A stretch of DNA of 52,805 nucleotides from Streptantibioticus rubrisoli. GTDB lineage: Bacteria; Actinomycetota; Actinomycetes; Streptomycetales; Streptomycetaceae. The position numbers and the translations under genes are program-made. The notes under the pieces were generated by a model. That model worked only from the letters and a program-made list of their open reading frames with translations, did not search any database and was not told the DNA's origin. Location of the stretch: contig NZ_JANFNH010000051.1 in NCBI RefSeq assembly GCF_024436055.1, forward strand, positions 1 to 52,805. Direction: 5' to 3'. Positions 1,863 to 43,155 of this stretch are shown piece by piece; position 1 is the first letter of the stretch, and every line of letters begins with the position of its first letter.

Positions 1863-3473
1863 CTACCGCCGGTAGCCCAGCAGCGTCATCATGCCGCTCT
1901 CCGCGTGGTAGACGTTGTGGCAGTGGACCATCCACAGCCCCGGATTGTCCGCGTCGAAGTCGACGTCCAGGGTCCGCCGCGGCAGCACTATGGCGGTGTC
2001 CTTGCGCGGGCCGCCGTTCGGCAGGGCGAAGGCGTGTCCGTGCAGATGGACCGGATGCCACATCGCCGTGTCGTTGCGGAACGACAGCCGCACCCGGTCA
2101 CCGGAGCGCAGCGCGATCCGTCGCGCCGGGTCGTACTTCTCGCCGTTGAAGCCCCAGTCGTACCCCGCCATGCCGCCGGTCAGCCGGAGCGGGACGGTGG
2201 TGTCCGGCCGCCTGGCGGGCAGTGCCACCGAGGGCGCGGCTCGCAACCGGCCGGCGGTCAGCGGGGGCCGAGCCAGTTCCGCCGGGCGCACGTCCTTGCC
2301 CGGGGCCTCGCCCGTGGCGGTACGCAGCACCGCGCGGGCCACCGCGTTCTTCCCCTCCGCCAGCGCGACCAGCGGGTACGCGCCGTCGCCCGCGGTGACC
2401 AGCACGTCGTACCGCTCGCCCATGCCCAGCAGCAGCGAGTCCGCCGCGGTGTGCGCGACCGGCAGGCCGTCGGCGTGGGTGACGGTCATACGGTGGCCGC
2501 CGAGGGCGACGCGGAAGGCGGTGTCGCCGCCCGCGTTGATGATCCGGACGCGCAGCCGCTCGCCGGGCTTGGCGGTGAAGGTCTGGGGATCGTCCGCGGT
2601 ACGGCCGTTGACCAGGTAGTACGGGTAGGCCACATCGCCCGCGTCGCCGCCGAGCAGACCGCTCGCCGCGCCCATCAGCATGCGGCTCGGGCCGCGCGTG
2701 GCGGTCCCCATAGCGCCCATGCCGGGCATGTCTGTCATATCGGGTGCACCGCTCATGTCGGGCGTACCGCCGTCACTGCCGGAGTCGCCGTGCCTGGCGG
2801 AGCCGCGCCCTCCGGGTGCCCCCGATGGCATCCCGGCGGACAACTCACTGAGCACGGCATCCGGAGTGGAACCATCCACTCCGTCCAGCCAGTCGTCCAG
2901 TACGACCACCCATTCCCGGTCGTACCGGAGCGGCTCCTTCGGGTCCTCGACGATCAGCGGTGCGTACAGGCCCCGGTCCTGCTGTACGCCGGTGTGCGGG
3001 TGCAGCCAGTAGGTGCCCGGGTGCGGCACGGTGAAGCGGTAGGTGAACTGGGCGCCCGGCGCGATCGCGCGCTGGGTGACATCGGGGACGCCGTCCATGT
3101 CGTTGCGCAGCGTCAGGCCGTGCCAGTGCGCCGTTGTCGGCTCGGGGAGGTGGTTGACCAGTACGGCCTCAAGGGTGTCGCCAGCGGTGACGCGGAGCTC
3201 GCGGCCGGGCAGTCGGCCGTCGTAGCTCCAGCTGCGGACCTTCGGACCGCCCAGGTCAAGCGTCGACTCGGTTGCGGTGAGCCGGACTTGGCGCAGCGGC
3301 CCGCTGCCGCGCCGCCGCTCGGCGGCGGTGACCTCCGGCCCACCGGGGGAGACGAAGGGGCCGGTCGACGATCCGGGTCGCGCCGGTCCGGAGGACGAGC
3401 AGGCGGCGAGCAGTCCGGTTCCGGCCAGGCCGAGTCCCGCGCCGAGCACGGCGCGGCGGGTGTGAGTACGCAT
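1863..3473 (-). CDS. Tat-exported multicopper oxidase
   Basis: A secreted copper oxidase, probably a cuprous or phenol/metal oxidase, of about 536 residues. The N-terminus has a twin-arginine signal (RTHTRRAVLGAG) followed by a lipobox-like LLAAC, so the mature protein may be a lipoprotein. All four copper-ligand motifs are visible: HWHG and HPHTG in the first cupredoxin domain, HPVHLHGHAF and HCHNVYH in the last. A Met- and Gly-rich loop around residues 220-270 (MSGAPDMTDMPGMGAMG) resembles the Met-rich copper-binding inserts of CueO-type enzymes. I chose ATG at 3473 because the upstream extension to 3512 would place extra residues before the Tat motif. Its neighbour upstream is a DUF6153 membrane protein. 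The family is certain; the substrate is not. Confidence 0.92.
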   Translation of the reverse strand: MRTHTRRAVLGAGLGLAGTGLLAACSSSGPARPGSSTGPFVSPGGPEVTAAERRRGSGPLRQVRLTATESTLDLGGPKVRSWSYDGRLPGRELRVTAGDTLEAVLVNHLPEPTTAHWHGLTLRNDMDGVPDVTQRAIAPGAQFTYRFTVPHPGTYWLHPHTGVQQDRGLYAPLIVEDPKEPLRYDREWVVVLDDWLDGVDGSTPDAVLSELSAGMPSGAPGGRGSARHGDSGSDGGTPDMSGAPDMTDMPGMGAMGTATRGPSRMLMGAASGLLGGDAGDVAYPYYLVNGRTADDPQTFTAKPGERLRVRIINAGGDTAFRVALGGHRMTVTHADGLPVAHTAADSLLLGMGERYDVLVTAGDGAYPLVALAEGKNAVARAVLRTATGEAPGKDVRPAELARPPLTAGRLRAAPSVALPARRPDTTVPLRLTGGMAGYDWGFNGEKYDPARRIALRSGDRVRLSFRNDTAMWHPVHLHGHAFALPNGGPRKDTAIVLPRRTLDVDFDADNPGLWMVHCHNVYHAESGMMTLLGYRR

Positions 3474-3557
3474 CGGGAAGGCAACTCGTGGTGTCGGTGG
3501 ATGGTCGTGCATACGGGCGGTGGCGTGCGGCCGCGCGGGAGCGGCCGATGGCGGGGC

Positions 3558-4265
3558 CTATATGCGTGACACCGACAGTTGGGTGAGCGACAGCGGTATC
3601 CGTGGCGGCGACACCGGGGCGTGACGTGCGCGCAGCACGGCGAGGACGGCGGCGGCACGGGTCCCGGACCGGCTCAGCGCCAGTCCGAGGGCGGCAAGCA
3701 ACGCGGCTCCCCAGGCACCCAGCACGGCCAGGCAGACGGACAACGGGTCCATGGAATGCGCGGGTTGACGGTGCGCACCGCCTCCGGCGGTGGACGCGTG
3801 GGTGGACGCGGTGGCAGGCGCCGGCGCGGCGGCGGGCGCGGCGGGTGGGGTGAGTGGGGGTGCGGCGGTGGGCGGGGGTGCGGGGTGCGCGAGGTGGGCA
3901 TGGAACGCGGCCGATGCCGTCGCCGGGCGGGTGTTGGGCGCCAGGCGCTCGTGGGCCGCGCCTGGGCGCTCCGCTGGAAGTGCGGCGATGGGCATAGCGC
4001 CCCGAAGGGGCGCGGGGAACTGCGCGACCAGCCACAACGACGCCGCAGACGATCGACGGCAACCGCAGCGGACTGCGCCCGACCTGCCCAGCGGCGATCC
4101 CGGATGCGCGTGGGCCGCGCCCGCGCCCGCCTCCGCGCCCGCGCCCGCCTCCGCGCCCGCCGTCGCGGACATCCCCGGCCCCTCGGGCATCGCAGGATGC
4201 CCGAGGGTGTGCATGGTGAAGATCCCGAACAACAGGGCGGCGATCAGCAGCAGTCGGCGGACCAT
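3558..4265 (-). CDS. DUF6153-like membrane protein carrying a repeat-derived insert
   Basis: Predicted 235-residue protein of unknown function. The N-terminus (MVRRLLLIAALLFGIF, then MHTLGHP) is typical of actinobacterial DUF6153 proteins: one signal-anchor followed by a His-containing segment. A second hydrophobic stretch (VCLAVLGAWGAALLAALGLAL) lies near residue 180, with an Ala/Pro-rich linker between. DUF6153 proteins as I remember them are shorter, about 120-150 residues. Here residues 68-90 are encoded by a Streptomyces-type repeat (3996-4063) read in frame. The start is ATG at 4265; the open frame continues upstream without good codon use. The neighbouring copper oxidase suggests a link to metal or redox stress, which is inference. 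Confidence 0.7.
   Translation of the reverse strand: MVRRLLLIAALLFGIFTMHTLGHPAMPEGPGMSATAGAEAGAGAEAGAGAAHAHPGSPLGRSGAVRCGCRRSSAASLWLVAQFPAPLRGAMPIAALPAERPGAAHERLAPNTRPATASAAFHAHLAHPAPPPTAAPPLTPPAAPAAAPAPATASTHASTAGGGAHRQPAHSMDPLSVCLAVLGAWGAALLAALGLALSRSGTRAAAVLAVLRARHAPVSPPRIPLSLTQLSVSRI
3996..4063. repeat. Streptomyces dispersed GC-rich repeat element, copy 1
   Basis: The element starts with the small hairpin AGCGCCCCGAAGGGGCGC and continues GGGGAACTGCGCGACCAGCC, ACAACG and GACGATCGACGG. A related copy lies at 18277-18373. From memory, elements with this core are scattered in many Streptomyces genomes, usually between genes. This one lies inside the DUF6153 reading frame without stopping it. 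Confidence 0.8.
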
Positions 4266-4914
4266 CGCACACCCCCCTGGTGTCTCCTGCGCAACTCCTG
4301 CCACGCGCCCAGCACCTTCGACAAAGAACCCTACACACCGCCACTGACAACGCCTCATCCCCGCGGTGCGCCCCCCGCGCCACCGTCCGACGATGGAGCC
4401 AGAGCGCGACGAAACGGATCCCCATGGCGCCATCCCCGCACCCCCGTCGGCGGCCGGGCCGCGACCGTCCTGCCCCGCCCCTGGCCGCCACCGCGCCGGA
4501 CCCGCGGCCGCCGCCCCGCTGCGCACCGCCCCGGAACGGATCCCGCGCCGCCCGCCAGACCGCCGCACTAGTCGCGGCCGCCCTTCCCCCTGGCCTCAAG
4601 GGCAAGGCAGACGCCCCCTGCGCGCACCCGGTAACGCACGCGGCCAGCAGGACCGCCGCCCGCACCGCGCCGGTGACGCCCACCCACCCGGCACGCCGGT
4701 ACGGCTGGTGGCCCCGGCCGTGCACCACCGGCCCGCCGTCGCCCCGCGCCGAACTGGCCGCCCCCGCATGGGTGTTGGGTGCCACCGCCGCCTCCCAGAA
4801 CGCGCCCGGCACACGGTCGCCGGGGGCGGCGCAGCGCCCCCAGGCCACGCTGACCGCCGTCTGGACCCGCACACCGGCCGCCTCCCTCGCTCGCCCCCCG
4901 ACGCCCCCGCCGCC
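4266..4914. other. 650 bp without a confident gene
   Basis: All six frames are long and open because GC is so high, so openness means little here. On the minus strand a GTG at 4872 is preceded by GGAGG with an 8-base gap. The frame has about 95% GC at third positions down to about 4610 and contains a hydrophobic AVRAAVLLAACVTGC stretch. It then runs into rare codons (AGG, GGA, ACT, AGT) and meets no stop before the next gene. It may be a decayed or frameshifted small membrane protein divergent from the hydrolase. Confidence 0.3.
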
Positions 4915-5817
4915 ATGACCGCTCGCGCACACCCCGCGCCGGGCGCCGCGCCGCCCGGCCGGATCCTGCGCGTCGGCGGTGTGCCGCTGCACGTGCTGCG
5001 CGAGGGCGCGGGACCGGTGTGCGTGCTCAGCGGTGGGCTGGGGCTGAGCTGGTTCGACTGGGACTCGGTGATCCCGTTGCTCACCCCGTACCGCACGGTG
5101 GTGCGGTTCGACCGGCCCGGCTACGGGTTCAGCGCCCCGCCGGTCACGGCGCCCACCGCCACCGCCGAGGCGGAACGGATCCGCCAGGTGCTGGACGCGC
5201 TCGGGCTGCCCGGACCGTGCACCGTCGTCGGGCACGCACTGGCCGGTTTCCACGCCGAGGCGTTCGCCCGGCTCTACCCCGAGCGCACCGCCGCCCTGCT
5301 GCTGGTGGACGCCAGCGTCGAGGAGGCGCCCCGGCCGCCCATGGCCAGCGGGCCGCGCACCGCCGCCGCCTGGGCGCTGGCCAGCGTGCTGACCGCCGCC
5401 GCCGTACCGTACGCCCTCGGGCCGACCGGCCGCCGACTGCTGTGGACCGCCACCACCCTGGACGGCCGCGACCCGGCCCCCGCGGCACTGGTCCGGCGCA
5501 CCTACCGCACCGGGCGGATGCTGCGCGCCACCTTGCTGGAGAACATCCGCTACCAGGACATGGCGGCCGAGATCCTCGAGCTGCGCACCCGTCGTCCGCT
5601 TCCCGCGGTGCCGGTGACCGTGCTGGCCGCGTACGACGGCAGTGGCTCGCGCCGGGCGCTGTACTGGCTGCGGCGGCAGCTCGGGCTGGCCAACGCGCTG
5701 GGCGCCCGGTTCAAGATCGTCACCCCCGCAGGGCACCTGATCATGATCGACCGTCCGCGGGCGGTGGCGTCCGCGCTGCTCGACCTGGGAACTCCACTGG
5801 GGAGGGCGCGTACCTGA
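4915..5817 (+). CDS. Alpha/beta-fold hydrolase
   Basis: A 300-residue alpha/beta hydrolase, probably cytoplasmic, substrate unknown. The fold is marked by the oxyanion-region strand (VCVLSGGLGLSWFDW), the segment VVRFDRPGYGFSAPP, and a nucleophile elbow at VVGHALAGFHAEAF, where the usual GxSxG serine is replaced by alanine (G-H-A-L-A-G). The acid and His regions follow (VTVLAAYDGSGS and PAGHLIMIDRP). Without the nucleophilic Ser the protein may be non-hydrolytic, or use another residue as some ester/epoxide family members do. The ATG at 4915 precedes the conserved ILRVGGVPLHV strand; a longer frame extends upstream but has poor codon use. It lies just upstream of the glnA2 promoter region. 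Confidence 0.8.
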   Translation: MTARAHPAPGAAPPGRILRVGGVPLHVLREGAGPVCVLSGGLGLSWFDWDSVIPLLTPYRTVVRFDRPGYGFSAPPVTAPTATAEAERIRQVLDALGLPGPCTVVGHALAGFHAEAFARLYPERTAALLLVDASVEEAPRPPMASGPRTAAAWALASVLTAAAVPYALGPTGRRLLWTATTLDGRDPAPAALVRRTYRTGRMLRATLLENIRYQDMAAEILELRTRRPLPAVPVTVLAAYDGSGSRRALYWLRRQLGLANALGARFKIVTPAGHLIMIDRPRAVASALLDLGTPLGRART

Positions 5818-5852
5818 AGTGCGGTTGTGTGTTCCACAATGGCGGTGAGGGC

Positions 5853-5880
5853 GTGACGCTCGGTGTAACGCGTCGGAAAC
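5853..5880 (+). promoter_or_regulatory. GlnR-type box upstream of glnA2
   Basis: GTAAC (5865-5869), six bases, then GAAAC (5876-5880) exactly fits the GlnR half-site pattern gTnAC-n6-GaAAc. A further GTGAC lies at 5853-5857, but with a 7-base gap. The site is about 107 bp before the glnA2 start. Binding is inferred from pattern only. Confidence 0.5.
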
Positions 5881-5986
5881 CCTTCTTGGTGATACTGGTG
5901 TGCCCTGGGCAGCGCTCCGCTACAGTGCGCCGATCCCGGCGAGCAAGCCGTCTGACCTGCCCGTCCGACCTGCGAGGATAGAGCCC

Positions 5987-7348
5987 ATGGATAAGCAGCA
6001 GGAGTTCGTGCTCCGCACGCTGGAGGAGCGCGACATCCGGTTCGTCCGGCTGTGGTTCACCGATGTGCTGGGCTTCCTGAAGTCCGTCGCGGTGGCGCCG
6101 GCCGAGCTTGAGCAGGCGTTTGACGAGGGCATCGGATTCGACGGCTCCGCGATCGAGGGCTTCGCCCGGGTCTACGAGTCCGACATGCTGGCCAAGCCCG
6201 ATCCGGGGACCTTCCAGATCCTGCCGTGGCGCGCCGAGTCGCCCGGCACGGCCCGGATGTTCTGCGACATCCTGATGCCGGACGGCTCCCCGTCGTACGC
6301 GGACCCGCGCTACGTCCTCAAGCGCACCCTGTCCAAGACCTCCGACCTCGGGTTCACCTTCTACACCCACCCCGAGATCGAGTTCTTCCTGCTCAAGGAC
6401 AAGCCGTCGGACGGCACCCCGCCCACCCCCGCCGACTCCTCCGGCTACTTCGACCACACCCCGCAGCACGTCGGGCAGGACTTCCGGCGACAGGCCATCA
6501 CGATGCTGGAGTCCATGGGCATCTCGGTGGAGTTCTCCCACCACGAGGGCGCGCCCGGCCAGCAGGAGATCGACCTGCGGTACGCGGACGCGCTGTCCAC
6601 GGCGGACAACATCATGACGTTCCGCCTGGTGATGAAGCAGGTCGCGCTGGAGCAGGGCGTGCAGGCCACCTTCATGCCCAAGCCTTTCTCGGAGTACCCC
6701 GGTTCGGGGATGCACACGCACCTGTCGCTCTTCGAGGGCGACCGCAACGCCTTCCACGAGTCCGGCGCCGAGTACCAACTGTCCAAGGTGGGCCGCTCGT
6801 TCATCGCCGGACTGCTGCACCACGCCGGTGAGATCTCCGCGGTCACCAACCAGTGGGTCAACTCCTACAAGCGCATCTGGGGCGGCTCCCAGCGCACCGC
6901 GGGCGCGGGCGGCGAGGCCCCCTCGTACATCTGCTGGGGCCACAACAACCGCTCCGCGCTGATCCGGGTCCCGATGTACAAGCCCGGCAAGACCGTCTCC
7001 ACCCGGATCGAGGTCCGCTCCATCGACTCCGGCGCCAACCCCTACCTGGCCTACGCGGTACTGCTCGCCGCCGGCCTGAAGGGAATCGAGGAGGGCTACG
7101 AACTCCCCGCCGGCGCCGACGACGACGTCTGGGCCCTCTCCGACGCCGAACGCCGCGCCCTGGGCATCGAACCCCTCCCACAGAACCTCGGCGAAGCCAT
7201 CACCTTGATGGAACGCAGCGAACTCGTCGCCGAGACGCTAGGGGAGCACGTCTTCGACTTCTTCCTCCGCAACAAGCGCCAGGAGTGGGAGGAGTACCGC
7301 TCCCAGGTCACCCCGTTCGAGCTCCGCAAGAGCCTGCCGGTGCTGTAG
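5987..7348 (+). CDS. glnA2: Glutamine synthetase-like gamma-glutamylpolyamine synthetase GlnA2
   Basis: A 453-residue class I glutamine-synthetase fold enzyme. The beta-grasp N-domain (FVRLWFTDVLGFLKSVAV) is followed by the ATP/metal catalytic barrel, including HPEIEFFL, GMHTHLSLFEGD, ICWGHNNRSALIRVP and the RIEVRSIDSGANPYLAYA glutamate-site segment. The region that carries the adenylylated tyrosine in GlnA reads DDDVWALSDAERR here, so a GlnE target is missing. In S. coelicolor the orthologue is known as a gamma-glutamylpolyamine synthetase that helps cells use or detoxify polyamines rather than make glutamine. The start at 5987 has GAGG 9 bases upstream. A strong hairpin follows the gene. 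The orthology rests on sequence pattern and on neighbourhood with nadE. Confidence 0.9.
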   Translation: MDKQQEFVLRTLEERDIRFVRLWFTDVLGFLKSVAVAPAELEQAFDEGIGFDGSAIEGFARVYESDMLAKPDPGTFQILPWRAESPGTARMFCDILMPDGSPSYADPRYVLKRTLSKTSDLGFTFYTHPEIEFFLLKDKPSDGTPPTPADSSGYFDHTPQHVGQDFRRQAITMLESMGISVEFSHHEGAPGQQEIDLRYADALSTADNIMTFRLVMKQVALEQGVQATFMPKPFSEYPGSGMHTHLSLFEGDRNAFHESGAEYQLSKVGRSFIAGLLHHAGEISAVTNQWVNSYKRIWGGSQRTAGAGGEAPSYICWGHNNRSALIRVPMYKPGKTVSTRIEVRSIDSGANPYLAYAVLLAAGLKGIEEGYELPAGADDDVWALSDAERRALGIEPLPQNLGEAITLMERSELVAETLGEHVFDFFLRNKRQEWEEYRSQVTPFELRKSLPVL

Positions 7349-7382: not shown

Positions 7383-7419
7383 CATCCGGGCCAGCGGAGT
7401 CCATCCGCTGGCCCGGATG
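7383..7419 (+). terminator. glnA2 terminator hairpin
   Basis: A perfect 16 bp stem (CATCCGGGCCAGCGGA and its complement) with a 5-base GTCCA loop, 34 bp after the glnA2 stop. Confidence 0.85.
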
Positions 7420-7449
7420 CGTCTCAGCCTCCCTGGGCCGTCTGTGGGC

Positions 7450-7587
7450 CGTCCGGCGCGGAAGCCAGTGGTTCTCGTCCGAGCCGAGATCGTCCGCGAG
7501 TTCCTCTGCACGGGCCAACAGACGGGTCGCACTCGGCCGATCCTGGTGGCGCGCTGCCGCAACTGCGGCGCGCAGGTGGATCTCGTC
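7450..7587 (-). pseudogene. Fragment of an XRE/TPR-type regulator
   Basis: On the minus strand about 46 codons read DEIHLRAAVAAARHQDRP, then SATRLLARAEELADDLG, SDENHW. This closely resembles the C-terminal TPR part of Streptomyces helix-turn-helix regulators, where the motif continues tAFGPTnvalH. Here the frame degenerates immediately into LPRRTAHRR. No start, DNA-binding domain or clean stop is present, so I read it as a leftover marking an old rearrangement at the edge of the accessory block. Confidence 0.45.
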
Positions 7588-7766
7588 GTGCGCGCGGCCC
7601 GGCCGTCCGCCGGGCCGACGCTCCTGTCTTCGCCCCGCTCCGTCCCGGCCGCCGTCCGTGCCGCGCGCGACGAACGGCAACAGTCATCCTGTGCGCTGAC
7701 CTCACGACCAGGACTGCCTCAGTCTGCGTGGAAGAATCACGCGCACGTCGACCGCGAGGGAGTGTC

Positions 7767-8423
7767 GTGAAGGACGTAACAGAGTTGATCAAGGCCCTCA
7801 CCGGATTAGCCTGGCCGCTAATGGCAGGCGTGGTGATCTGGCGACTCTTTCCCATGGTTAAAGAAATCGCTCGATCCAGGGGATTTACAATCAAGGTCGG
7901 CGAGGCCGAGGTTACAGTTCAAGAATATTCAGAGAAGCTTATCCAGGCTACGGCTGACATTCAAGGTAGGCTCGCATCCGTAAGTGCAGCACAAGCAGAG
8001 CCTGGCGGATCGCGGCAGCCTCAAGCGCGGACGCTGGAGAGGGCTCTCTGGGTTGACGACTATCCGGAGAACAACGTCACAGAGGTAGCCCAATTGCGAG
8101 CACTCGGCGTTGAGGTCAGGCTGGCTACGGCTACCGACGAGGGCCTTCGAATCCTTTCCCGTGCAGCCCCTGAATTCGACGTCGTAATTTCAGACATGGG
8201 CCGAAAAGAGTCAGGGCGCAATAACGGTGATGCCGGGCTTGATCTAATCCGAGAAATTCGCGCCCGAGGTGAGGCAATTCCCATCTTCATCTATGCGGGT
8301 CCACGTACAACTTCTCGGCGGAGGGAAATCCTTGAAGCTGGCGGAGATGGTGTAACCGCCTCTCCGACAGAGCTGTTCGAGTTGCTGCGCGGCGTCGGGG
8401 AGTTCCCGGCCCAGCAGAGCTGA
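7767..8423 (+). CDS. Membrane-anchored receiver-domain protein
   Basis: A 218-residue protein with one predicted membrane helix (about residues 10-26, ending VVIWRLF), then a charged, probably helical linker. From about residue 92 there is a CheY-like receiver fold: ALWVDDYPENN for the acidic pocket, FDVVISDMG for the phospho-acceptor strand, and IPIFIYAG for the switch strand. No DNA-binding output domain is attached. The GTG start at 7767 has GAGGG 6 bases upstream. Codon use is clearly less GC-biased than in glnA2, which suggests transfer. Similar stand-alone receiver-like domains occur, as I recall, with accessory conflict or signalling genes in actinobacteria. The role here is unknown. 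Confidence 0.75.
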   Translation: MKDVTELIKALTGLAWPLMAGVVIWRLFPMVKEIARSRGFTIKVGEAEVTVQEYSEKLIQATADIQGRLASVSAAQAEPGGSRQPQARTLERALWVDDYPENNVTEVAQLRALGVEVRLATATDEGLRILSRAAPEFDVVISDMGRKESGRNNGDAGLDLIREIRARGEAIPIFIYAGPRTTSRRREILEAGGDGVTASPTELFELLRGVGEFPAQQS

Positions 8424-8875
8424 TCAATCAGGTACGCCGCGCGTGCTGGTGGCCGGTGAGGCGTGCATCGCCCCTTCGGGCCGATACCGGCAATGCCGCG
8501 CCTGGCTGGCACCCGCGCCGTGACAGCACGGTGTGCCTGTGCACCGCCGTACCCGCGCTGTGGCGCCGCCGTTTGGCGCTTCGCGCCGCGCGGAGACAGA
8601 GCGGGGGCTCCTCCGGACCCCGCCCCGCTTACAGGGCCTTCGTGGTTGCTGACTTGCCCGGCCACGGCAGTCCACGAAGGCCCCAGCCCCTACGTGCGGA
8701 GGCAAGTGGCTGACATCCACGGGTGACATCAACGAGGGCGGACGTAGGCGCATCCCGGCGGTTCACCACGGAACCGCCAACGCCAGCCAACCACCGGCGC
8801 GCAGGGCAGCAGCGGCCACCGGATCGAACTTGTAAAGTGGGGGTCAGCCTCCCTGTCGACCGTTATGGTGCGATC
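8424..8875. other. Non-coding gap with an inverted repeat
   Basis: No frame here shows believable codon use plus a ribosome site. The one structured element is a perfect 12 bp inverted repeat (GGGCCTTCGTGG at 8634-8645 and its complement at 8672-8683) with a 26-base spacer, possibly a weak terminator for the receiver gene. Confidence 0.5.
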
Positions 8876-9136
8876 ATGACGCGACCGCCAGAGCATCCAG
8901 CGAACAGAGTCGACAGCAGGGAGGCTCTGGTGGAGCACATCCTTAGCCTGCGTGCAGATCTGCTTGAGCGAGGCGACAAGTGGGAGAACCCCACCCTGGA
9001 GCGCTACCTGGAGGCACTAGCGTCGTGGCTCGCGGTCTCGCCTAACTGGTACCGAAACTTCGGCCAGGAGATGCCAACCGGCGGCGACTGGACCCTCTTC
9101 GCTCGCGCGCTGAGCGCGGCGGTCGTGTACGAGTGA
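8876..9136 (+). CDS. DUF7660-like small protein
   Basis: An 86-residue acidic protein of unknown function. The pattern WENPTLERYLEALASWL, followed by WYRNFGQEMPTGGDWTLFARAL, matches the short DUF7660 family as I remember it (a conserved W-N-x-L-x-x-Y-L-x-A-x-x-x-W core). Members occur scattered in accessory DNA of actinobacteria and other bacteria. ATG at 8876 is the most natural start, although the frame is open back to 8723 and no clear Shine-Dalgarno is seen. It sits alone on the plus strand between the receiver gene and the convergent DUF488 cassette. Confidence 0.55.
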   Translation: MTRPPEHPANRVDSREALVEHILSLRADLLERGDKWENPTLERYLEALASWLAVSPNWYRNFGQEMPTGGDWTLFARALSAAVVYE

Positions 9137-9344
9137 CGACTAGAGGCGCGGACGAGGTGGGGATGGAGGGGCGTGCTAGATCCGTGCCAGAAGGGGCGGT
9201 CAACCACGGTCAGTGAGGGCGCATCACGGGGCAGGCGTTGCCTCATCGGCCACAAGGTTCGGCGCCCTTGATGCCCAGCGAAGTCGTCCCGCAACCGACC
9301 GCCAGGCTTACAAAGCAGACCTCAGCATCTCTATGCGGCTGGTG

Positions 9345-10157
9345 TCAGAAGAGGCTTGTCTGCACCGGTTCCGTCAACACCTCCGCAGGCGGATAGAAGA
9401 GCCCAAGCAGCATGAACGTCTTGGGGTGGGCCGCGATGTTGCCGACGAAGAAGTGGACGGCCCGTTTCGCGTCGAGCATGGTGCCGAACCAGCGTTCGCG
9501 GAGCTTGGCTTGGAGCTGTGTGGCGGGGTAGCGGCGTTCGAAGTTGCGGTAGGACTGACCGGCCTCCCAGTCCTTCAACGCCATGTCGTGTCCCGTGCAC
9601 TCCTTGTCCGAGCAGCGGAATCGGTACCGGAACTCGTATGGCACCCACTCCAGGGGAGCGCGGTCCTGGTCAATGACGTCCACTTGGTTGGCGATGCCGA
9701 TCTGAGCATCGGTCCACGGGTCAGCGGGCTTGAGCCGGAAGTCGCTGATCTCTGCGGGGCGGAAGACGCCCAAGGACGTGCCGTTACGCTCCTGAGCTCT
9801 CTTGATGGCGCACAGAGAAGGGTCGATGAGCGGCTGTATGTGCTCCAGTCGGCGCCTCCAGCCGTCCGAAGAGGGTAAGTGGTCCACGACCTTGAGAGTG
9901 TTCAGGTTCGGGCGCAGACTCTCCGGCCGTCGGTCCGCGTCGTGTCGACGTACGTCGACCTCTATGACCGCGTACTTCTTGAACTGACTGTCGTGCTCCA
10001 TGAGGCGGTACGGCACCGGGAAGATCCGGACGTGCTGCGGGGCGTCCTGGTCGAGGCGGACGCCAGCCACGCAGCTAGTTTCTCTGTACTTCTTCGAGAG
10101 CTCGGGATAGGTCTTCACCGTGATCAGGATCCGTGCCCGCTGCCATGGCTGAGTCAT
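9345..10157 (-). CDS. Unnamed conserved protein with CxxxxCxGH and DWE motifs; partner of HTH-DUF488
   Basis: A 270-residue cytoplasmic protein that I cannot name. The N-terminal half has ARILITVKTYPELSKKY, then a beta-rich stretch (VRIFPVPYRLM, YAVIEVDVRR, DRRPESLRP). The C-terminal part holds a striking cluster: C182-SDKE-C187-TGH190 and D196-W-E198, then FFVGNIAAHPKTFMLLGLFY near 236-255. The Cys/His/acid set could bind zinc or form a nuclease-like site; this is inference. I chose ATG at 10157, just before the conserved strand, over the in-frame extension to 10319. It lies 92 bp downstream of the HTH-DUF488 gene on the same strand, so the two probably form one operon. Function unknown. Confidence 0.75.
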   Translation of the reverse strand: MTQPWQRARILITVKTYPELSKKYRETSCVAGVRLDQDAPQHVRIFPVPYRLMEHDSQFKKYAVIEVDVRRHDADRRPESLRPNLNTLKVVDHLPSSDGWRRRLEHIQPLIDPSLCAIKRAQERNGTSLGVFRPAEISDFRLKPADPWTDAQIGIANQVDVIDQDRAPLEWVPYEFRYRFRCSDKECTGHDMALKDWEAGQSYRNFERRYPATQLQAKLRERWFGTMLDAKRAVHFFVGNIAAHPKTFMLLGLFYPPAEVLTEPVQTSLF

Positions 10158-10249
10158 GCCTGCCCTCCCCGTGCGCCCCCAAGTCTGAGGACTGATTGCA
10201 CGGCAGGCATAGAAAGCAGCGCAAGGGCGCATCAGCGGCGCGGAGTTGC

Positions 10250-10936
10250 TCAGGGCAAGTTGGCCACCGGCACGTCGGCGCGTTCCCGCACGGCTTCCAA
10301 TACGACCTGACGGTGACAACGGTCTTCGTCCTGCTCGAAACAGAGCACCGCGACCCGTGAACGCTGGGCGAGCTCGACGAGCTCGTCCAGTTGCGTGTTG
10401 GCCTCAGCGGACTGAAGGACGCGTCGGAAGCCGGACCGTCCCTCGGCGAGGCGCCCCTCCCAAAACGGCGCGCGGTTGTCCTTGGGGTTACCGAGCTCGC
10501 GCAGGTGGCGATACGCGATGCCGACATCGGCCAGGGCGACGCTGAGTCGCGTCTTGCTGAACCCCGGCTTCCTGCTGATGGGAGTGAGGCGGACATCGAC
10601 GACCGCTTGGACTTCTGCCTCCACCAGGGCGGCAACGAAGGACTCGATCGTCCTGCCCTCGTATCCGGTTGACCACAGGCCAGGAAGCATCCGCGTTGCC
10701 GCGTACAGCTCGTCGAGGGTTGTGCCGAGAGCTTCGGCTAGTGCACCGACGGTGAAGAAGCCGGGCTGTACCGGTCCCTCGCTCTCCAGTCGGACAAGTG
10801 TCCGTGTGTGGATGTTGGCTTCCTTGGCCAGGCGTTCTCGCGTCCAGCCGCGTTCTTCCCGAAGTGCTCGAATCCGCCGGGCGAGAAGCTGTGCTCTGGC
10901 CTGCTCGGTAGGGTCTGCTGGAGGTCGACCTGCCAT
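10250..10936 (-). CDS. HTH (XRE)-DUF488 fusion protein
   Basis: A 228-residue fusion. Residues about 15-75 form a Cro/CI-type helix-turn-helix (RIRALREERGWTRERLAKEA). Residues 88-225 are a DUF488 domain with its hallmark points: STGYEGRTIESF, VVDVRLTPISRKPGFSK, an R-x-L-G-N segment and the terminal VLCFEQDEDRCHRQV, where CHR is near-invariant in the family. DUF488 has no settled biochemical role. I start at ATG 10936, which has AGGA 8 bases upstream. The other candidate at 10957 lies inside the palindrome 10949-10970, which fits better as an operator. The HTH suggests autoregulation of this two-gene cassette. Confidence 0.85.
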   Translation of the reverse strand: MAGRPPADPTEQARAQLLARRIRALREERGWTRERLAKEANIHTRTLVRLESEGPVQPGFFTVGALAEALGTTLDELYAATRMLPGLWSTGYEGRTIESFVAALVEAEVQAVVDVRLTPISRKPGFSKTRLSVALADVGIAYRHLRELGNPKDNRAPFWEGRLAEGRSGFRRVLQSAEANTQLDELVELAQRSRVAVLCFEQDEDRCHRQVVLEAVRERADVPVANLP

Positions 10937-10948
10937 GGGCTTGATCCT

Positions 10949-10970
10949 AACTTCCATTTAAATGGAAGTT
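10949..10970. promoter_or_regulatory. AT-rich perfect palindrome, candidate operator of the DUF488 cassette
   Basis: The half-site AACTTCCATTT is followed directly by its exact reverse complement, giving a 22 bp uninterrupted palindrome in DNA otherwise over 65% GC. Its near edge is 12 bp upstream of the chosen HTH-DUF488 start, a natural place for self-repression. Confidence 0.65.
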
Positions 10971-11074
10971 CCAGTGCGTGAGCTTGCGGCGGCGGAAGTG
11001 GCGATCTCTGTGCCCTCTGGACCGGCTGCGGGCCAAGGCACCGTCGTGCTGGCCCGGCGAGTCTGACAGGCCTC

Positions 11075-12178
11075 TTACAGGCGGCGCAGAACCTGTGCCT
11101 CCACCCGCTCGACGAGCGTACGCCCGTATGCGTGCACGAGGGAGAGATGGAAGAGGGACGGTGCCAACGGTGCCCAGCGGTGGATGCGGTTGGTCCGCAG
11201 CATGTACTTGACCACCGTTGCTGGCCGGAAGGGAACGTAGTCGATGGTGTGGTGCTCCCAGCGATCGGCGACACCCCGGCTCATTCGGGCTTGAAGGCCC
11301 GCGCTCGAGAGGTCCTTCAGCCTGGCGTGGAAGTGACCGCTCCAGTGGCGTTTGTCCACGTCCAGGACGAAGGCCAGGAGATCGAGGGAGTATTCGTGGG
11401 GCTCCAGGGACAGTTCCTCCCGCATCCCGCGACGGGCCACCGCGTGCAGGTCAGGTGCGCTCCTGCCCGAAGAGTCGATGTGCCTCGAAAGACCCTCGTT
11501 CATGGAGGAGTTCCAGACACCCGGTGCCATGCGCACCTGGTTGCTGCGCTGGCTCACGACGAGCATGTCGTCTGCGGTGACCACAGCGACGTTGACGGCG
11601 AGGCTGCACTGGAGGAAAGACGGAGCCGCCAGGGGGTCATCGGGATCGAGATAGCGGGTCCGGGGCGTGGTGCCGTCGGAGAGCCTGCGGTCCAGTTGCT
11701 GAGCGGCGAGGAACGTGTAGTAGTCAGTAGGGCGCAGCCTCAGATGGATCTCGGGCGTCTCGTCGAGAGGGGTACGGGAGATGTCGAATGACTCGACGGC
11801 GTAGCGCGGGCCGTTCCACAGCGGCGTGCGCCCCTCCGCCCGCAGTCGCTCGCCCTCTTCGACGATTTCGTCCCGCCAGTCGGCCATGTCCGGTGGCAGA
11901 ACTGCCTCATCGTCGAGCACCTGGATGTCGATGGCTTCTGGAGGCAGCGGAGACGTCCCGTCGCCCTCGACGATCAGTGCGGAAGTCCGCAGAGGCCCTA
12001 GAGAGAACGTCTGCCAGGCGGGCCCCGACTCCTCCTGCCGCCGCATGGTGCGAATCGCGGTCGTGGAGCGCTTTCGCAGCCGGTACCAGGCGTCCTGCAG
12101 CGGCTGCTGGAACAGCACGGCGCAGACCATGCCGAGCACGGCGCCCACCACTCCGTTGGCAATATCGATTCCGTCCAT
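11075..12178 (-). CDS. Membrane-anchored Nudix-like protein
   Basis: A 367-residue protein with an N-terminal membrane helix (about residues 6-24, VGAVLGMVCAVLF), a poorly characterised middle part (30-185) and a C-terminal Nudix-like domain. The domain opens at CSLAVNVAVVTADDMLVV (191-208). Its box is divergent: G220 and E228 in PGVWNSSMNEG are followed by an insert of about 20 residues before RRGMREELSLE (249-259), where R..REEL matches the metal-binding end of the Nudix helix. The substrate cannot be read. The next gene on the same strand (HTH-DUF488) starts about 140 bp downstream, but the palindrome between them suggests separate control. Membrane-tethered nucleotide hydrolases have been seen in anti-phage contexts; any such role here is speculation. 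Confidence 0.7.
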   Translation of the reverse strand: MDGIDIANGVVGAVLGMVCAVLFQQPLQDAWYRLRKRSTTAIRTMRRQEESGPAWQTFSLGPLRTSALIVEGDGTSPLPPEAIDIQVLDDEAVLPPDMADWRDEIVEEGERLRAEGRTPLWNGPRYAVESFDISRTPLDETPEIHLRLRPTDYYTFLAAQQLDRRLSDGTTPRTRYLDPDDPLAAPSFLQCSLAVNVAVVTADDMLVVSQRSNQVRMAPGVWNSSMNEGLSRHIDSSGRSAPDLHAVARRGMREELSLEPHEYSLDLLAFVLDVDKRHWSGHFHARLKDLSSAGLQARMSRGVADRWEHHTIDYVPFRPATVVKYMLRTNRIHRWAPLAPSLFHLSLVHAYGRTLVERVEAQVLRRL

Positions 12179-12440
12179 GCCAGAGACAGTAAGAACCTTG
12201 CCGCTGCCGGGTGCCGTCGTGCCTCATCCGTTACCCGGTGGTCCGGCCAACCGGTCGAGACTCTTGGGGGAGGTCGGTCGGCACACATCAATGCTGCGGT
12301 GCGTAGCGGATCCCACCACGGACCGGCTGTGCTGCCGTCCTGTGCGAGAGAGGAGCCCAGTGCTGACATACGCGATCTGCTGGCGGCGGAGAACATTGCG
12401 TTGGTAACGCAAACGGAGAGTGGGTTCGCGGGCTTCCCGC

Positions 12441-12465
12441 CCCCGCGGTAGCGCCTACCGCGGGG
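12441..12465 (-). terminator. Hairpin after the secreted phosphoesterase
   Basis: An 11 bp perfect stem (CCCCGCGGTAG and its complement) with a 3-base loop, 13 bp past the phosphoesterase stop. The preceding 12179-12440 holds no credible gene. Confidence 0.7.
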
Positions 12466-12477
12466 ACCGGGTTGGCC

Positions 12478-13353
12478 CTACTGCCAGATCCCCGTGATGT
12501 CCGTCGCGGACGACGCGTTGCCCGCGTACGGCAGGCCCTCCATGTCCTCGATCGTGCGGAGCAGGTCGTAGTGGCTGTACGTCGTGGAGGACGTGCTGCC
12601 GGGGGACACCGGCTGGCCGTACAGGACGGTGGGGATGTTGTTGGTGTCGGTGCCCTCGTCCTCGTCGAAGGTGATGGCGAGGACGCTGTTGTGGGTCTGC
12701 GCCCAACTCGCGTACGCGCCCAGGTTGTTCTGCAACCAGGTGTCGCCGGTCTGGACGTCGCAGTCGTGCATGTCGTCGCACAGGTTCGGGACCACGAACG
12801 ACACCCGCGGCAACTGCGTGTAGTCCGTGGGGAACTGGTCGAAGGTGTAGGCCGTCGACGTCGGGACGTTGCCGAAGCCGAACCACGGGTTGTGCTTCTG
12901 GGCGTACTCGCCGCTGCGGCAGACCGTGTCGCCCTGGCTGGGCAGCGACTCGTTGTAGCTGGCCCAGCTCTTGCCCGCGGCGATCAGCTCGGAGCCGAGG
13001 TTGTCCGCGGAGATGGAGCCGGGGTCGACGCAGGAGTCGTCGGTGATGCCCTGGGTGTCGCCGGAGAACAGCGCGTAGTAGTTGGGCTGGCTGGGATGGG
13101 TCTCGGCGTGCATGTCGGTCAGGTTCGCGCCGCCGCTCACCAGCGAGTTGATGTACGGGGCGTTGGAGCTGCCGATGACCTGGTCGTACCCGTGGTTCTC
13201 CAGCATCACCACGACGACGTGGTCGGGGGTGGGCACGCCGTTCGCCGCGTGCGCCGGGGTGGCGCCCATGCCCGCCCAGGCCGCGGCCAGTGCCGCGGCG
13301 GACGCGAGGGCGGTGAGGGCACGGCGGGACGTACGAGGATTGGTGCTGGGCAC
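12478..13353 (-). CDS. Secreted phosphoesterase (PF04185-type, acid phosphatase/phospholipase C-like)
   Basis: A 291-residue exported protein of the alkaline-phosphatase superfamily branch that includes AcpA and bacterial phospholipase C. A signal peptide with a twin-Arg pair (TSRRALTALASAAALAAAW), ending near AHA-A, suggests Tat or Sec export. Mature motifs include HVVVVMLENHGYDQVIG (metal and Asn site), ETHPSQPNYYALFSGDTQG, and a late FDEDEG acidic cluster with downstream YSHYDLLRTIEDM, which carries the conserved His. Together these form the expected metal-binding arrangement. The likely role is to release phosphate from extracellular phosphoesters; the substrate is not readable. It is divergent from glnE. 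Confidence 0.88.
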   Translation of the reverse strand: MPSTNPRTSRRALTALASAAALAAAWAGMGATPAHAANGVPTPDHVVVVMLENHGYDQVIGSSNAPYINSLVSGGANLTDMHAETHPSQPNYYALFSGDTQGITDDSCVDPGSISADNLGSELIAAGKSWASYNESLPSQGDTVCRSGEYAQKHNPWFGFGNVPTSTAYTFDQFPTDYTQLPRVSFVVPNLCDDMHDCDVQTGDTWLQNNLGAYASWAQTHNSVLAITFDEDEGTDTNNIPTVLYGQPVSPGSTSSTTYSHYDLLRTIEDMEGLPYAGNASSATDITGIWQ

Positions 13354-43129: not shown

Positions 43130-43155
43130 AGTTGGACTCACATGTGAGTCCAACT
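43130..43155. promoter_or_regulatory. 26 bp perfect palindrome between divergent XRE and ATPase genes
   Basis: The half-site AGTTGGACTCACA is followed directly by its reverse complement. Extra GTGAGTC-like words occur at 43098 and 43165. The position between the divergent pair suggests an operator for the XRE protein. Confidence 0.65.

Follow-up and report, generated by a model that had tools for sequence, protein, structure and literature searches.

The window, that is, the whole 52,805-nt stretch of DNA that was analysed, carries an accessory insert of about 5.1 kb (7403-12483). On one side of it is glnA, on the other a phosphoesterase-like gene and then glnE; these flanking gene names are presumed from the protein sequences. 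The insert is marked by a break in homology to relatives and by a G+C content of 64.8%, against 69.9% for the whole window. Alignments of the window to relatives jump from the end of glnA (~7402) to ~12484, and the corresponding position holds 448 bp in one genome of the same genus (L177), about 500 bp in L178, 64 bp in L179 and about 4 to 5 kb of other sequence in L180 and L181. In L176, also of the same genus, the alignment resumes at 13103 after ~1.1 kb of other sequence, and there the phosphoesterase gene is degraded. Two genes of the insert, which we call A (10250-10936) and B (9345-10157), lie 92 bp apart on the reverse strand and have no match at all in the genomes of these six relatives (L176-L181). 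The A-B pair is accessory and sits in an insert missing from relatives, the kind of location that a sequence-only reading of this DNA had proposed.

Three further genes share the insert. The first encodes a receiver-like protein (7728-8423, forward strand) whose Response_reg match (5.4e-6) falls below the Pfam cut-off, the second a DUF7660 protein (8876-9136, forward strand; PF24693, 5.5e-20), and the third a putative membrane Nudix-like protein (11075-12178, reverse strand) that belongs to no Pfam family and for which the sole hint is an NCBIfam match to isopentenyl-diphosphate isomerase at an E-value of 0.05. The open reading frames of the receiver and Nudix-like proteins are as first described. 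Homologues of the three genes were found in none of 100 other pair loci, each searched together with as much as 10 kb of flank; in these loci the B query was found in 100 and A in 93. The Nudix-like gene has a patchy spread of its own: it occurs in 19 of 249 family genomes, only two of which (G000 and G021) also have a B match, and a 97% identical copy is present in G191. Judged by these distributions, the receiver-like, DUF7660 and Nudix-like genes are passengers outside the A-B unit, and the larger set with receiver and Nudix-like proteins that had been suggested is not upheld.

Gene A encodes a 228-aa protein (MAGRPP...) in which a Cro/CI helix-turn-helix (HTH) is fused to DUF488, as had been recognised from the sequence; the Pfam matches are DUF488 (PF04343; 6.5e-31, 107.9 bits against a gathering threshold of 22.2) and HTH_3 (5.2e-12), and the AlphaFold2 model has a pLDDT of 93.1. 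Numbered in a 229-residue alignment frame that starts one residue ahead of the Met, the DUF488 part has 20 positions that are the same in all 25 aligned members, among them G92, Y93, D115, R117, C200, E202, C208, H209 and R210. We take C200 and C208-H209-R210 to be catalytic residues. Because the DUF488 residues, including C200, E202, C208, H209 and R210, are invariant, A looks catalytic and the window copy looks intact. Foldseek places the HTH near 2ofy, DdrO, C proteins and CapH, and nearly all of the best 50 matches listed are HTH proteins. A PDB sequence search with A gave no match for the DUF488 domain; HslU, which came up at an E-value of 0.15, was judged a chance match.

The HTH is seen in only some of the A proteins. 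None was seen in A of 12 of the 16 convergent loci whose translations were inspected, nor in that of Gordonia phage Nymphadora, and A has about 150 or more additional N-terminal residues in six viral contigs and in L096 and L103. In L127 and L133 the extension weakly resembles the SocA_Panacea, DarG and type I specificity models (for the viral contig L127, SocA_Panacea at 0.0045, below the cut-off). Since other A proteins are without an HTH or have other N-terminal extensions, the HTH of the Streptomyces form is, by these comparisons, the occupant of a replaceable N-terminal position. Burroughs and Aravind are said to have placed DUF488, in 2023, in a RapZ-C-DUF488-DUF4326 clade of the rhodanese-phosphatase superfamily and to have predicted DNA-end processing in biological conflicts. 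A resembles this clade as a DUF488 protein with a conserved cysteine. In a 2025 PNAS paper, an archaeal ParB-CTPase fold fused to DUF488-HTH is reported to bind CTP.

Gene B encodes a 270-aa protein with no Pfam, NCBIfam or PDB match by sequence. Its AlphaFold2 model (pLDDT 90.5, pTM 0.88) suggests two OB barrels, the strand pattern being judged by eye from DSSP. In a Foldseek search of the PDB, archaeal RPA is the best match (4.5e-5), followed by HIN-200 domains (IFI16, p204, p205) and baculovirus LEF-3, with E-values from 4.5e-5 to 1e-3, and every match at 0.001 or better is an RPA, HIN-200 or LEF-3 chain; against a viral library, the top matches are nine LEF-3 proteins. The TM-scores are low (at most 0.45 among the best 50 PDB matches listed), and so the claim for B is limited to the OB-fold class and does not extend to homology with a particular family. 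B also differs from these best fold matches in having no sequence match to them and in its own near-invariant D-W-E and D-x-R-x-E-S motifs. B matches the PADLOC model PDC-M19B (4.6e-57). From the structural results we predict that it is a tandem OB-fold protein, which is new here, and that it probably binds nucleic acid.

Conservation in B was assessed in 30 proteins less than 60% identical to each other. P18, C29, R44, P47, D75, R77, E79, S80, R103, D196 and G239 are constant in all 30, and K15, S21, K61, W100, S128, Y178, W197 and E198 are nearly so, which makes D-W-E (D196, W197, E198) near-invariant. The residues first pointed out in this protein, C182, C187, H190, D196, W197 and E198, are numbered exactly so in the 270-aa reading frame. 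The metal or nuclease-like centre that they had been thought to form finds no support: the model of the protein shows a tandem OB fold, and the C-x4-C-x2-H knuckle (C182, C187, H190) is found by pattern in 13 of the 30 diverged proteins, altered in two (L107, with longer spacing and D-W-G in place of D-W-E, and L115, with different spacing) and absent in 15. The alignment indicates that the knuckle is lineage-specific. Because the polar residues K15, R44, R51, K61, D75, R77, E79, R103, D196 and E198 are strongly conserved, beyond what a generic ssDNA binder needs, B could itself be enzymatic.

A perfect 22-bp palindrome, AACTTCCATTTAAATGGAAGTT (10949-10970), covers the first possible start codon of A (ATG 10957), as originally described. 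Its 16-bp core is found once in the 7.26-Mb assembly, with up to one mismatch allowed, and the window holds two perfect palindromes of at least 22 bp against a mean of 0.12 and a maximum of 1 in 60 Markov-1 simulations. The other one, AGTTGGACTCACATGTGAGTCCAACT, is 26 bp long (43130-43155), lies apparently between divergent genes and is possibly another autoregulatory operator. Abutting the 22-bp palindrome, with one base common to both, is a putative promoter element, the -10-like box TAGGAT (10944-10949, reverse strand), 7 nt ahead of the ATG at 10936. The upstream regions of HTH-type A genes were compared in 52 loci, of which seven were dropped for want of a start or helix that the script could locate, leaving 45 readable ones. 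In 37 of these 45, the window included, and in 15 of 20 once similar ones are collapsed, TAGGA[AT] precedes the ATG by 7-9 nt; in 100 shuffles the mean at that spacing is 0.02 and the maximum 1. This recurrent spacing makes ATG 10936, rather than the upstream ATG 10957, the likely start of A, and the placement of the box 7 nt from that ATG suggests that the transcript of A may be leaderless.

A strong palindrome is found in only 2 of the 45 readable upstream regions, and conservation of the palindrome across the family is rejected. The second case is L070, in which a near-identical site, CTTCCATTCAAATGGAAG, occupies the same place relative to the -10-like box. The A protein of L070 is 68% identical overall to that of the window, and its recognition helix, HTRTLVRLE, is identical; the sequences farther upstream of the two palindromes are not alike. 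The promoter-proximal half-site GGAAGT is kept in six of the 45 upstream regions and absent from the rest. In L077 there is a different, weaker palindrome, CCGATTGTAATCGG, the strength of which is reached by 14 of 200 shuffles. The single matching pair, window and L070, with the same helix, is suggestive of an operator and not proof of one. An autoregulatory operator for A, as first proposed, remains plausible even though the palindrome is poorly conserved; what is kept instead is the -10-like box and, in six upstream regions, the half-site.

To what extent A and B belong together can be read from their distribution. Of the 297 family genomes, 25 contain a B match and 17 an HTH-DUF488 match. 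Seventeen of the B matches are close to full length, including one that has an in-frame stop, and eight are fragments. A accompanies a near-full-length B in 16 genomes and a B fragment in one, a near-full-length B without A occurs in one, and 279 have neither A nor a near-full-length B (Fisher p 2.5e-24). The patchiness of B, with 8 of 25 copies fragmentary, is as would be expected under fast turnover. At the level of the phylum, the PDC-M19B model matches five of 296 genomes, and, among 14 control genomes, it matches those of Synechococcus elongatus and Methanosarcina acetivorans. Such a distribution, together with the empty sites, is not that of a near-universal housekeeping family in a fixed position.

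A scan of one genome per species in 84,980 species gave 74 loci, 73 with a B profile match. When loci from all collections were pooled, leaving out the window and two duplicates and retaining near-copies, 105 B loci other than the window were obtained, and A is present in 97 of them; the proposed two-gene unit is thereby supported, both here and by the 16 of 17 near-full-length B genes with A in the family. The order is A then B, co-directional, in 60 loci, convergent in 36 and B then A in one; eight have no A, and none is divergent. The eight are L073, five shortened B matches (L080, L081, L086, L090 and L097), L108, where the flank covered is 1.5 kb, and L113, on the Sulfolobus islandicus plasmid pSOG2. 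On pSOG2 the B homologue lies beside an integrase with no DUF488 neighbour in the stretch covered, and the next gene encodes a different protein of about 168 aa. L080 and L081 are partial B genes with equal scores, one close to each end of the linear Streptomyces cyaneochromogenes chromosome, and presumably belong to its terminal inverted repeats. The distance between coding ends runs from a 41-nt overlap to a 36-nt gap in 32 of the 36 convergent pairs, the exceptions being L099, L100 (A and B 1.9 kb apart), L102 and L116. In convergent loci such as L116, L123 and L125 the 3' ends of the two frames run into each other, by as much as 41 nt or, in L116, about 228 nt, and each mRNA would then be antisense to the end of the other. 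A third gene order is seen on a Calothrix plasmid (L204), where B is followed co-directionally by a weak A-like gene.

The pair is also found on mobile elements. B is present on 23 plasmid records, 11 of them typed conjugative, and in seven Gordonia phage records, and both A and B are on 21 of 21 viral contigs, where eight of ten neighbouring genes scanned match phage families. In two of these contigs (L118 and L126) the pair is among head genes, not in an immunity region. In 24 of 70 loci scanned for it, a tRNA-Pro(CGG) gene stands upstream of A at a distance of no more than a few hundred bp. In Gordonia phage Nymphadora, the pair comes directly after the repressor, in the immunity region; the integrase follows a few genes later, and past it lies a DNA helicase. 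Its genes 42 and 43 are a DUF488 gene (150 aa) and a B homologue (39.7% identity); gene 42 (L109, 8825-9277) is named a HipA toxin in the public record, yet it encodes a DUF488 protein (1.2e-29). These observations show that A and B form a real, conserved, mobile two-gene unit.

Both proteins match, and are adjacent like, the components of a candidate defence system of PADLOC-DB 2.0, PDC-M19. B matches PDC-M19B over positions 3-264 of 269, and A matches PDC-M19A (2.9e-31) over positions 149-286 of 294, the DUF488 part only: where PDC-M19A has another N-terminal domain (model positions 1-148, unmatched here), the window protein has the Cro/CI HTH. The 294 positions of the PDC-M19A model are filled by the A proteins of L121, L127, L119, L133 and L096 at 283-422 bits, against 107 bits for the window protein; for PDC-M19B, the window protein scores 191 bits and three other B proteins 198-421. 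By these matches the window pair appears to be a divergent, HTH-bearing variant of PDC-M19. In a 2026 archaeal survey (PMC12988326), PDCs are described as putative candidate defence systems, mostly without validation, and are traced to a preprint by Payne et al. 2024; the main text does not name PDC-M19. We found no mention of PDC-M19, and no function or antiphage test for it, in the literature searched, and no description of the A-B pair in the DUF488 literature searched. The Nymphadora genes 42 and 43, which lie beside the immunity repressor, are called a candidate toxin-antitoxin (TA) system by Pope et al. 2017 (PMC5559632); they differ from the window pair in being convergent and in having a DUF488 protein without an HTH. 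A prophage defence of another Gordonia phage, CarolAnn 43/44 (PMC6426606), resembles the pair as two genes coexpressed with a repressor. It is described, however, as a membrane protein together with a second protein whose DUF4747 match is weak, a system compared with RexAB; since these are other proteins, it was rejected as a tested relative.

The surroundings of other loci were also compared with PADLOC models. In L070, the locus that shares the putative operator, GajA (1.1e-161) and GajB (2e-138) of Gabija directly adjoin the pair (2553-6940). Elsewhere the pair is flanked by PDC-S28 (L091), PDC-S11 (L064) and PDC-M51A (L032); single-gene scans gave no match at L086 and L097 and an HNH model alone at L078. 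These scans covered ten genes of seven hand-picked loci, with known or candidate defence genes at four of the seven. In the window, neither of the two scanned neighbours of A-B matches a PADLOC model. A flank set of 140 genes, from 35 of 51 usable loci, gave matches to 165 PADLOC models, and a control set of 133 genes (of 142, from 20 stretches in seven genomes) to six. This comparison is qualitative, since the alignment reports families and not genes, and the two Gabija genes of L070 account for up to 94 of the 165. The mad3 model was matched in the flank set and the control alike. The commonest Pfam match among the flank genes is metallophosphoesterase (10 of 140), which at least in L061 is part of the tRNA-Pro site. 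As to the suggestion that the cassette is a defence unit, both proteins do match the candidate PDC-M19, but defence stays a candidate label.

Taking into consideration the gene pairing, the mobility, the conserved residues, the predicted folds and the geometry of the proposed operator, we favour, with middling confidence, a mobile PDC-M19 variant, HTH-bearing and autoregulated, that would act against foreign DNA: the OB protein would deliver such DNA to the DUF488 enzyme, and autorepression would control the unit. B, through its two OB folds, would bind the invader's nucleic acid, as single strand or at ends, and present it to the cysteine-centred DUF488 active site of A; DUF488 would then modify or process the nucleic acid, leaving the element unable to replicate. 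With its HTH on the palindrome, next to the -10 box of its own gene, A would keep the levels of A and B low, and the promoter would be freed once A engages B and foreign DNA. Weighing against this reading are the low TM-scores of B, its strongly conserved polar residues, the rarity of a strong palindrome, the lack of PADLOC matches beside the pair in the window, L086 and L097, and the place among head genes in L118 and L126. DNA as the target, the DUF488 chemistry, repression, induction and phage protection are what we infer here, and our confidence in the chemistry is lower than in the statement as a whole. A bolder version, which we regard as speculative and quite unlikely, would make B a prokaryotic foreign-DNA sensor of two OB folds, like the animal HIN-200 receptors, that hands DNA ends to a cysteine-based DUF488 enzyme capping or modifying them; in the Streptomyces form an HTH that binds the promoter would have replaced the N-terminal control domain, and the enzyme would act as its own sensor and repressor.

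Other functions would account for part of these data. The pair might be a toxin-antitoxin system, the HTH-DUF488 protein being an autoregulating antitoxin and B, or the DUF488 domain, the toxin, that stabilises mobile elements or aborts infection. The label given to the Nymphadora genes by Pope et al. 2017, the antitoxin-style HTH of the window A and the weak SocA_Panacea-like domain of the L127 A, and the carriage on plasmids and phages would all fit, but we consider this reading fairly unlikely. The genes are co-directional in the window, but 36 of 105 loci are convergent, which is unusual among TA operons, and the 12 of 16 convergent A proteins in which no HTH was seen argue that A is not a dedicated antitoxin; moreover, A looks catalytic by its invariant DUF488 residues and B, in its predicted fold, resembles DNA-binding proteins and no known toxin. 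Rather unlikely, in our estimate, is an accessory role in the nucleic-acid metabolism or repair of mobile elements, for example end processing in transfer or replication, and not in defence. The predicted tandem OB fold, the 11 of 23 plasmid records typed conjugative, and the phage carriage, with a DNA helicase gene just past the integrase in Nymphadora, are consistent with such a role, but the pair adjoins known or candidate defence genes in four of the seven singly scanned loci and comes directly after the repressor in Nymphadora.

The patchy distribution speaks against a redox or stress regulator, in which DUF488 would be a rhodanese-like sulfur sensor controlling the HTH and B an accessory, and so does the persistence of the DUF488-B link where no HTH is seen; we consider this reading very unlikely, even with DdrO and CapH among the Foldseek neighbours of the HTH and the placement of DUF488 in the rhodanese-phosphatase superfamily. 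It is hardly credible that the receiver, DUF7660, A, B and Nudix-like genes make up one five-gene stress or defence unit: all are in one 5.1-kb insert, but the three additional genes are without homologue in the 100 other pair loci and the Nudix-like gene is distributed independently of the pair.

For the anti-foreign-DNA module that we favour, the OB prediction for B, the residues constant from archaeal plasmids to phages and the two main orientations provide a concrete, testable hypothesis, with DNA as the target and DUF488 as the enzyme. The Streptomyces form adds to it a natural candidate operator and recognition helix, and Nymphadora lysogens of Gordonia terrae offer a ready laboratory handle on the pair. 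If the bolder version were true, a HIN-200-like sensor coupled to end modification by DUF488 would be a new chemistry of immunity.
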